Shown here piece after piece: positions 31,829-34,144 of a stretch of DNA of 64,000 nt (positions are counted from its first letter, which is position 1; every line of letters starts with the position of its first letter). Made by a program: the position numbers and the translations under genes. The stretch is from Synechococcus sp. PCC 7502. GTDB taxonomy: Bacteria > Cyanobacteriota > Cyanobacteriia > Pseudanabaenales > Pseudanabaenaceae. The notes under the pieces were generated by a model. It did not search any database, had not been told where the DNA came from, and saw only the letters and a program-made list of their open reading frames with translations. The DNA lies in assembly GCF_000317085.1 (NCBI RefSeq), contig NC_019702.1, positions 1,270,394 through 1,334,393 of the forward strand, given 5' to 3'.

Positions 31829-32386
31829 TTAGCAAAACTCTAATACAGCTTTAATCCGCTCATCTAGGTTTGTGATCTGGCGATCTAGGCATACAGTTTT
31901 AGATTGCAAACGGCGATCGCTACATAAGCCCATGACTAGAATATTAATATGTTCAATGTATGCCTGATTCAAAGCAGCCTTGCCAACTTCATACACCAAA
32001 GGAATTCCCGGTTGAATGATTACTAGTTTCCCAAAAAATTTATTGGTCGCATCAAAGCAGAGATTTAGATAATCCTCTAATTCTCCAAAATTCACCTCGG
32101 TTTTGCCCTGAATATCGCCAATGGTATAAGCCATCATGTCTATGGGTGTGCGATCGCTAATAAAAAAGTTTTCTTCCTGCTCCCAAATGGCGATCGCTGC
32201 TTCTAAAACCCGATGCTGAATATTTAAGCGGGTACCAAAATCCATCGGTAAAGCTGGGTCTAAGCCATATTTTCTGAATACACCACTGGTATCAGTTTTA
32301 ACAAAGGGAATATTTTTGTGTTGGGCGATCGCCTGTGCCAAAGTCGTCTTTCCGGTGCGATGTCCTCCACATAGTCCAAGGTTCAT
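31829..32386 (-). CDS. P-loop NTPase of the AAA/ATPase-kinase type
   Basis: A 185-residue single-domain P-loop protein. Walker A is GGHRTGKTT (7-15) at the very N-terminus, a Walker B-like FFISDRTPIDMM follows at ~74-85, and the C-terminal half has a predicted lid and an arginine-containing helix (LDRQITNLDERI). The size and the D-R-T-x-x-D motif resemble nucleotide or cofactor kinases (NadR-like or deoxynucleoside kinase-like folds). The substrate is not recognisable. It converges with ndhL/DUF3007 and borders the island at 32.4 kb. Confidence 0.75.
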   Translation of the reverse strand: MNLGLCGGHRTGKTTLAQAIAQHKNIPFVKTDTSGVFRKYGLDPALPMDFGTRLNIQHRVLEAAIAIWEQEENFFISDRTPIDMMAYTIGDIQGKTEVNFGELEDYLNLCFDATNKFFGKLVIIQPGIPLVYEVGKAALNQAYIEHINILVMGLCSDRRLQSKTVCLDRQITNLDERIKAVLEFC

Positions 32387-32671: not shown

Positions 32672-32785
32672 ACGATCGCAGCTCAAATAATGGGACATTC
32701 TATTGCGATTCATACGCAAACCTATCACCGTTGGATCAGTCGCCGTGATCAACAACAGGCAGTAGATGCAGTTTTGAGCCATTAA
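32672..32785 (+). pseudogene. C-terminal fragment of a tyrosine recombinase
   Basis: The stretch encodes IAAQIMGHSIAIHTQTYHRW and then ISRRDQQQAVDAVLSH-stop. MGHS...T-x-x-Y-x-x-W is the end of a phage-type integrase: the GHS box with a catalytic His, and the nucleophilic Tyr. Only the last ~37 residues remain, with no open frame before them. It marks a past integration event beside the antitoxin remnant and the Shedu-like gene. Confidence 0.65.
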
Positions 32786-32902
32786 CTCCACAACTCTCGC
32801 CGAACCTCGTAATCAATAACCTATTCCTTAAACTTTTTTTCTATGATTGCTTGGTTTAATATATCTATATTGAGTTTTTCGCACGCTCATAGGAACCCTA
32901 AT

Positions 32903-33184
32903 ATGCAAATACAAATACAAGATAGAGCCAAAGTGTCCTTGCGATCGCTCCGCAAGCCAGAACAAACAAAAATTACTCGCACGCTGAATGAATTAGCTGC
33001 TACTCTCCACACAAATGCAAAGTTACGAAGACTTGCCTCGAAATTCCCCTTTAAGAAAATGTATACCTATGAAGTCGACCAAAACCTAAGTTTAATTATT
33101 TCAGCAGAAGGAGATACCTATACTCTTGAAGACATTATAGATAGAGACCGATTGAACTATCTCATTCCTACGTTTCAAGAATGA
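32903..33184 (+). CDS. RelE/ParE-superfamily-like small protein
   Basis: The ATG at 32903 is preceded by AGGAAC 6 nt upstream, so I use it instead of an ATG 60 nt earlier. The product has ~93 residues. Pattern: a helical N-terminal half (KVSLRSLRKPEQTKITRTL, NELAATL), LRRLASKFPFKKMYTYEV, and then strands NLSLIISAEGDTYTLEDIIDRDRL. This helix-helix-beta layout and the ending in I-x-D-R are like RelE/ParE mRNA interferase or gyrase-toxin folds, but classical catalytic residues cannot be assigned. The stop codon overlaps the start of the Shedu-like gene (ATGA), so translation is coupled. It could be a toxin, an inhibitor or a helper of that nuclease. Confidence 0.6.
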   Translation: MQIQIQDRAKVSLRSLRKPEQTKITRTLNELAATLHTNAKLRRLASKFPFKKMYTYEVDQNLSLIISAEGDTYTLEDIIDRDRLNYLIPTFQE

Positions 33185-33804
33185 AAAATCTGCAAAAGCA
33201 CGTTATCGATCCCCAAAAATGTCGTACTGAATGGGATGACTTTTCAAATCTCCTTACCTCTAAGCCAATACTCTCAGAGCAAAAAGATGTGCTTCCCTTT
33301 TTCAAGCAGCGCCAAAATCTCTCCTTACTTATTTGCAACTACTTTCCAAAGATTAAAGTCCCTGACCAATACGCTCATGAATACGAAATTTATGGTGACT
33401 TTATTGCGGATTTAGTGATCGGAGATTCATCCGTTCATCATTACTTACTCGTTGAATTTGAGAATGGGGCAGCAGATAGTGTATTTAGACAGAAAGGGAA
33501 AAAGGCAACTCCAGACTGGGCACCACGATTTGAAGGTGCATATTCCCAGTTGGTAGATTGGCTTTGGAAGCTTGAAGACATGAGAAGTACACAGGACTTC
33601 CTTAACACCTTTGGCTCCCGCCGTGCAACCTTTCAAGGGCTTATAGTTATTGGCAAAGATATGAACCTAGCAGTACAAGAACAGGATCGTCTAAAATGGC
33701 GATTAGATAAAACAATGATTGACTCAAATGCAATATCAAGCGTCTCTTTCAATCAATTGAGTAACGATCTTAATCACTGGCTAAAATTCTATTATGGGGT
33801 CTAG
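33181..33804 (+). CDS. Shedu-type immune nuclease-like protein (DUF4263, SduA-like)
   Basis: A 207-residue protein. The core has the PD-(D/E)XK-like pattern of the DUF4263 family: IYGDFIADLVIGD (~70-82), then strand YLLVEFENGAADSVF (~88-102) and K-rich linker KGKKATPDWAPRFEGAYSQLVDWLWKL, a very characteristic stretch in SduA relatives (APEWSPRFE...SQLVDW). After this come GLIVIGKD and a C-terminal helical region. Shedu proteins are single-gene anti-phage systems made of a nuclease domain. Here the protein is short and has only a short N-terminal extension, and it overlaps the RelE-like gene. No hypermutated or GC-shifted composition is evident. The nuclease role is by family; no DNA target is known. 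Confidence 0.78.
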   Translation: MKNLQKHVIDPQKCRTEWDDFSNLLTSKPILSEQKDVLPFFKQRQNLSLLICNYFPKIKVPDQYAHEYEIYGDFIADLVIGDSSVHHYLLVEFENGAADSVFRQKGKKATPDWAPRFEGAYSQLVDWLWKLEDMRSTQDFLNTFGSRRATFQGLIVIGKDMNLAVQEQDRLKWRLDKTMIDSNAISSVSFNQLSNDLNHWLKFYYGV

Positions 33805-34144
33805 CTCGTTGTCGCCAATAAAATTACCAGCTTGAATTTGTTCAAACACATCTTGAGTATCTGCGTCCCATAGCAGGATCGACGTTAAATTTTGTACCCG
33901 AAAATAAGCTAGTGGTTGGCTTTAATTGTGCTTTTACCTCCCCTAAAATCGGAGCGATCAAAAACTCAGACCTAACTTTTTCCGTATTTACCAACGTTAC
34001 AAAAGCCTGCGATTGCTTCAAACTTTCCTTTAGATGGAGAGATGGCGGTACTGGTAACACATGGTCAAATAAACTCTCCTCCTCCTTGACAATTAAACCA
34101 AGTTCTTCTTTCAGGCGCATTAAGGTAAAGTCACTGTAAGCCAT
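33781..34144 (-). pseudogene. Broken cyanobacterial hypothetical gene (PD-(D/E)XK-like family) with a second frame at its end
   Basis: The first frame from 34144 reads MAYSDFTLMRLKEELGL and LFDHVLPVPPSLHLKESLKQ, EKVRSEFLIAPIL and TSLFSGTKFNVDPAMG, the N-terminal ~95 residues of a common cyanobacterial family of ~200 residues that usually continues into a restriction-like domain. After NVDPAMG the sequence stops making sense in this frame (RRYSRCV-stop at 33842). In the overlapping frame a different protein tail is readable: VQNLTSILLWDADTQDVF and EQIQAGNFIGDNELD, ending at 33781 inside the tail of the Shedu-like gene. So two gene ends were probably joined by deletion. I do not recognise the tail. 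The rest of the gap to 34266 is empty. Confidence 0.55.

Follow-up and report, generated by a model that had tools for sequence, protein, structure and literature searches.

A gene for a small RelE-fold protein precedes short Shedu nuclease genes and may encode a regulatory subunit

Short Shedu (SduA, DUF4263) nucleases occur together with a second gene. A homologue of one small protein, which probably has a RelE/ParE fold, is encoded directly upstream in all 29 distinct full-length short Shedu sequences collected. Type I and type II Shedu are called single-protein systems in passages of a 2025 review (PMC12409362), and the first-pass annotation of this DNA had likewise described Shedu as a single-gene system, so that a constant small partner is unexpected. 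It is fairly probable that the pair represents a two-protein ('split') Shedu, in which the RelE-fold subunit regulates the short nuclease in trans. The observations supporting this reading are the constant adjacency and frequent overlap of the two genes, the fold of each protein, the lack of an N-terminal domain in the nuclease, the co-variation of both proteins, purifying selection, the drift of RelE-type catalytic positions, and fusions of the RelE-fold domain in relatives.

The gene pair and its surroundings

The pair is located in a window of 64,000 nucleotides (the whole stretch of DNA analysed), which contains the following features:

32673..32787, + strand: relic of the 3′ end of a tyrosine-recombinase-like gene, 115 bp, upstream of the pair, recognized by DNA identity; context, not a part of the system
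32903..33184, + strand: small protein P0001, 93 aa, predicted RelE/ParE fold, probable regulatory subunit (ORF, upstream homologues, AF2 fold)
33181..33804, + strand: short SduA/DUF4263 nuclease P0002, 207 aa, nuclease domain only (PF14082, PDLC00379, AF2)
33181..33184, + strand: ATGA stop/start overlap (sequence)

The small ORF starts with ATG at 32903 and ends with a stop codon at 33182-33184, and the SduA ORF starts with ATG at 33181. The first-pass annotation had placed ORFs of 93 and 207 residues here, with the start of the Shedu-like gene overlapping the stop of the upstream one; both were recovered at the same positions, the overlap consists of four shared bases (ATGA), and the nuclease motif cited at that time is present in the 207-residue protein. 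The longest frame of the small ORF begins further 5′, at 32843 (113 aa); the start at 32903 is favoured because of the N-termini of homologues and an AGGA approximately 10 nt upstream. The ATGA overlap suggests that the small gene and sduA are translationally coupled. A promoter/terminator scan returned three promoter-like sites, fewer than in shuffled sequence, and none upstream of the pair.

Elsewhere in the same genome, at a distance of about 41 kb (G000:C3:1262196), lies an intact frame of 385 aa whose 3′ part is 92% identical in DNA sequence to the 115-bp relic; from a motif we take this frame to be tyrosine-recombinase-like, Pfam giving no match. A genome of the same genus (G001) resembles the window up to approximately position 32386, after which an alaS-like gene (identified by eye) replaces the pair, and the relic is located near the point where this similarity ends. 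The break in G001, the recombinase-like relic and the scattered distribution of the pair fit its horizontal arrival. Just downstream of the pair, a 100-aa ORF on the - strand (33842-34144) gave no clear Pfam match and is possibly a remnant.

Predicted folds and conserved residues

The 207-aa protein matches PF14082 in Pfam (E = 1.1e-33) and PDLC00379 in PADLOC (E = 5.2e-98, model positions 1-206 of 211), and the latter is also matched by all 19 members of the nuclease alignment (A3). The PADLOC model covering this short SduA is already known, and so is a Vibrio phage record in which neighbouring genes are labelled 'RelE-like' and 'Shedu__SduA'. The AF2 model of the nuclease (pLDDT 86) was matched to Bacillus cereus Shedu (8ti9_B; Z 13.2, 3.6 Å, 173 residues) and to Escherichia coli SduA (Z 13.1), the best non-Shedu match having a Z of 8.1. 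Residues 10-206 align to residues 183-379 of the B. cereus protein and 203-408 of the E. coli protein. Since only nuclease-domain residues of the solved Shedus are matched, the N-terminal sensor domain appears to be absent from short SduA. A PDB profile search with the nuclease alignment returned one lectin match (E = 0.009), which was judged spurious.

Seven residues (D77, E92, E94, S122, Q123, D126, and W127) are identical in all 22 short Shedus compared. By analogy, D77, E92, E94, and Q123 would be the PD-(D/E)xK-type active-site residues, with a putative catalytic role, in an ExE variant; the replacement of ExK by ExE presumably resembles the situation in BamHI. Several long Shedu loci have ExK where short SduA has ExE, and two of the control loci described below (L038 and L048) also have ExE. 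It was considered whether short Shedu is a mere fragment of long Shedu, and this was ruled out because forms of 205-245 residues are widespread and their active site is invariant.

The Shedu types were reportedly defined by Gu et al. in 2025. Type I Shedu (B. cereus Shedu and E. coli SduA; PDB 8ti8/8ti9, 8ps4/8ps5) has the DUF4263 domain and its fold in common with the short class, and passages of PMC12137116, PMC12904381, and PMC12409362 describe a regulatory domain ahead of the nuclease in known type I proteins. In contrast, the 207-aa protein, judged from its model, appears to carry no such domain in the same polypeptide, and the short class has a separate RelE-fold gene always upstream and the ExE motif. 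Type II Shedu is possibly the same short class, as a passage of PMC12409362 assigns N-terminal domains before DUF4263 to type I; however, type II is a single protein according to that passage, and the short class here has a constant second gene.

With the small protein as a single sequence, no significant match was obtained in Pfam, PADLOC, NCBIfam or PDB, and a RelE assignment is therefore not possible from this protein alone. When a profile of 17 homologues was searched against PDB, YoeB/HigB/RelE chains came out on top with weak E-values (0.007-0.06), and among these homologues Pfam ParE_toxin was touched by four and Gp49 by three. The AF2 model (pLDDT 81, seven sequences in the alignment) has Pyrococcus RelE as its best structural match (Z 11.3, 2.4 Å, 82 residues), followed by Cami1 (Z 11.0) and then by YafQ, RelE, HigB, and ParE toxins; all 50 structure matches listed are toxin-antitoxin toxins of the RelE/YoeB/HigB/YafQ/ParE type or Cami1. 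On the basis of the model, the small protein is assigned a RelE/ParE (BECR) fold. The upstream gene had been called RelE/ParE-like before, and the lack of such a fold had been named as a finding that would speak against a coupled RelE-like partner; the model has the fold, with weak support from sequence.

RelE-type RNases require several catalytic residues, and ParE-type members have no RNase site. None of the catalytic-type residues is invariant among 22 dereplicated members of the small-protein family. At position 63 (R63), Arg is found in 18 of the 22 and Ser in the window protein, the D77 position is kept in 20, and position 81, near which the His/Tyr of RelE-type toxins presumably sits, has mixed residues. 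Judged from the alignment, the conserved catalytic residues of RelE-type RNases seem not to be kept in the small protein, which could be read as a degenerate toxin fold retained for binding since these positions are not invariant. The window copy, given the Ser at R63, may be decaying or specialised.

Homologues of the small protein also occur as C-terminal domains of larger proteins, of 411-414 residues at L018 (genome G362; 411 residues) and L030 (G365), and of 384 residues at L006. For the N-terminal part of the L018 protein, Pfam gives an AHJR-like REase (PF18743, 1.2e-21); the RelE-fold domain of L006 follows a region with hydrophobic segments (identified by eye). The L018 and L006 fusions look as if the RelE-fold part were an adaptor between a sensor and the nuclease.

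Occurrence and evolution of the pair

For each nuclease fetched, the same-strand ORF just upstream was listed, with at least 195 aa taken as full length for short Shedu; four nuclease fragments whose 5′ part is missing (L017, L025, L026, and L027), none with an adjoining small gene, were excluded from the 29. An upstream match is a match to the small-protein profile, which contains most of these neighbours, and the profile scores of the upstream ORFs are thus partly circular; the position and size of the ORFs are not. The stop-to-start distance is -4 in 15 loci, -1 in four, 0 in one, and +6 to +22 in six, and in the remaining three the overlap is longer, with alternative starts possible. Among long or other cyanobacterial Shedu loci (L038, L041, L042, L044, L046, L048, L049, and L051), no small-protein profile match was found in any of the eight within the stretch examined per locus. 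L041, which was kept in this set, belongs to the ExK type and has a stop interrupting its frame ahead of a 188-codon stretch. A DUF4263 gene standing alone in relatives had been proposed as the finding that would tell against a partner, together with a search for a conserved small gene upstream; the short class has the gene throughout and the eight other loci have none.

The pair occurs in cyanobacteria, Parathalassolituus, a Desulfobacula MAG, Aliarcobacter, Pantoea, Agrobacterium, Enterobacter and E. coli phage-plasmids, and a Vibrio phage; the short Shedus collected thus come from cyanobacteria, gamma- and alphaproteobacteria, Campylobacterota, the Desulfobacula MAG, phage-plasmids, and phages. 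Because some loci are closely related (e.g., L019, L020, L021, and L029), the 29 are not 29 independent events, and the taxonomic spread is a stronger point than the count. A chance neighbour or a feature of a single genome is ruled out by the presence of the small gene in 29 of 29 loci across several phyla.

A relative of the nuclease was found in 10 of 58 related genomes and in 23 of 388 genomes of a class-wide sample (own genome and broken copies counted), and further nucleases were obtained from genome, viral, plasmid, phage, and E. coli collections. The counts do not include 8 of the 13 plasmid records and one of the two phage records that have a match. A DNA match was present in one of 5426 complete E. 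coli genomes, and a viral scan with the Pantoea nuclease revealed no relative. Only the starting genomes were returned when 369 genomes from the class of Parathalassolituus and 297 from the phylum of Desulfobacula were searched, so that the pair appears rare outside cyanobacteria in this sample.

In the converse direction, 194 cyanobacterial genomes yielded 15 matches of at least 66 bits to the small-protein profile, each next to a short Shedu or what is left of one, this test being partly circular because the profile was built from Shedu neighbours. The next-best match had 31.7 bits, as for ordinary RelE/ParE proteins. A generic RelE/ParE toxin placed there by coincidence is ruled out by this gap (at least 66 bits versus at most 31.7).

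The identity matrices of the two proteins are correlated (r 0.816 for 26 pairs and 0.748 for 22 dereplicated pairs), and none of 5000 permutations gave a value as high. Part of this correlation comes from the common ancestry of the loci, and it does not prove contact; kinship among loci inflates both the correlation and the count of 29. The small gene has a dN/dS of 0.09-0.23 in five pairs with measurable dS (dS is saturated in three more), which indicates purifying selection.

An intact small ORF is found beside a broken nuclease in seven loci (L010, L011, L023, L028, L030, L062, and L111; L023 is near a contig end), and in genomes G056 and G154, where the nuclease is dead, no other short Shedu was found. 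The reverse was seen once, in L088 (Enterobacter hormaechei), where a frameshift splits the small gene beside an intact nuclease; the small partner may be dispensable there, or L088 may have been read wrongly. This order of decay is not evidence alone, as a hand-computed P is approximately 0.2 for seven versus one if targets scale with gene length.

Roles of the small protein

In the proposed mechanism, short SduA would be a bare PD-(D/E)xK-type DNA nuclease without an N-terminal sensor domain, and the RelE-fold protein would be translated first, in a fixed ratio set by the overlapping start. It would bind the nuclease, take in trans the role that the N-terminal domain has in cis, and keep the nuclease off, or steer it, until a phage signal arrives. 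A regulatory subunit in trans is the simplest reading because the N-terminal domain is missing and the RelE-fold gene is in its place. From these observations we infer a physical complex, regulation, its direction, and an anti-phage function of the pair. Several points count against the split Shedu: the small proteins are mostly basic (pI at least 8 in 20 of 26 pairs) like RNA-binding toxins, although a DNA-binding partner could be basic too, and there are the L088 frameshift, the Ser at R63 in the window, and the finding of no promoter upstream of the pair.

The main rival, which we regard as unlikely, is a dual effector, i.e., an active RelE-fold RNase (or gyrase poison) that is set free or activated together with Shedu, which would combine an attack on RNA or translation with DNA cleavage. 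The RelE/ParE fold and the basic pI are consistent with it, and RelE domains are known from other defence contexts. Cami1 combines a cyclic-oligonucleotide sensor with an active ribosome-dependent RNase. Its RelE domain (PDB 8phb/8phj), among the best fold matches here, is part of a larger defence protein, but Cami1 has no nuclease partner, unlike the small protein. Passages of Gerdes 2025 (PMC11980606) propose a defence role for the ptuXYZ operon, which likewise includes a RelE homologue within a putative nuclease system; in contrast to the present pair, it consists of a DUF262 protein, a PtuA-like ATPase, and a PIN-like/BECR protein, without Shedu, and neither Shedu nor SduA is mentioned in the main text of that paper. 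Against a second active RNase, no catalytic-type residue is invariant, and the small ORFs seem harmless alone, as they remain intact beside broken nucleases in seven loci; the drift of the catalytic positions and this persistence make it less likely. It had been suggested earlier that the small protein could sense, inhibit or add a second effector, and the alignments and loci lean towards sensing or inhibiting.

A more specific form of regulation, which we consider improbable, is that a former RelE toxin is the sensor subunit of a distinct Shedu class, docking on the translating ribosome or mRNA and holding the nuclease there. A shutdown or remodelling of host translation by a phage would make the complex let go, so that the nuclease could attack DNA, and relatives would extend the sensor by fusing further domains to the RelE-fold adaptor.

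RelE-fold toxins bind their partners directly, which agrees with a toxin-antitoxin arrangement that we judge very doubtful, with a RelE-fold toxin gene first, the Shedu gene as its antitoxin, and DNA cleavage as a later function. The toxin-first order resembles that of higBA, as given in passages of PMC11980606. The small protein shares its fold and weak profile similarity with RelE, YoeB, HigB, YafQ, and ParE toxins, but catalytic positions are not kept and its partner is not an antitoxin; instead of the adjacent cognate antitoxin of type II systems, the downstream gene encodes in 29 of 29 loci a nuclease, whose active site is invariant, and not a DNA-binding antitoxin, and small ORFs persist beside dead nucleases, including those in G056 and G154. 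That the small ORF is a translated leader that only sets nuclease expression, its protein having no role of its own, is hardly credible, as the overlaps are short in most loci but the selection on the protein, the conserved fold and the fusions to other domains stand against it.

Returning to the split Shedu, the RelE-fold/Shedu pairing is undescribed in the portions of the literature searched (including PMC9519451, PMC9148166, PMC12926258, and PMC12948488), which did not extend to the primary Shedu papers (Gu 2025 and Loeff 2025). If the short class needs its RelE-fold partner, annotating only the nuclease overlooks half of the system, attempts to clone it by itself may fail or prove toxic, and the restraint of a Shedu nuclease could be tested with two separable proteins; a toxin fold would then have been reused as a regulator. 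The natural phage-plasmid copy L110 makes the system testable in laboratory strains of E. coli. This copy (E. coli CH468 plasmid) and those of Enterobacter (L088 and L089) are located on plasmids with phage genes, adjoining ssb and head/DarA genes. In the Vibrio phage PQ189353.1 (L092), the RelE-like/Shedu pair adjoins a gene labelled Gabija GajB, and the region is possibly a small phage-borne defence cluster.
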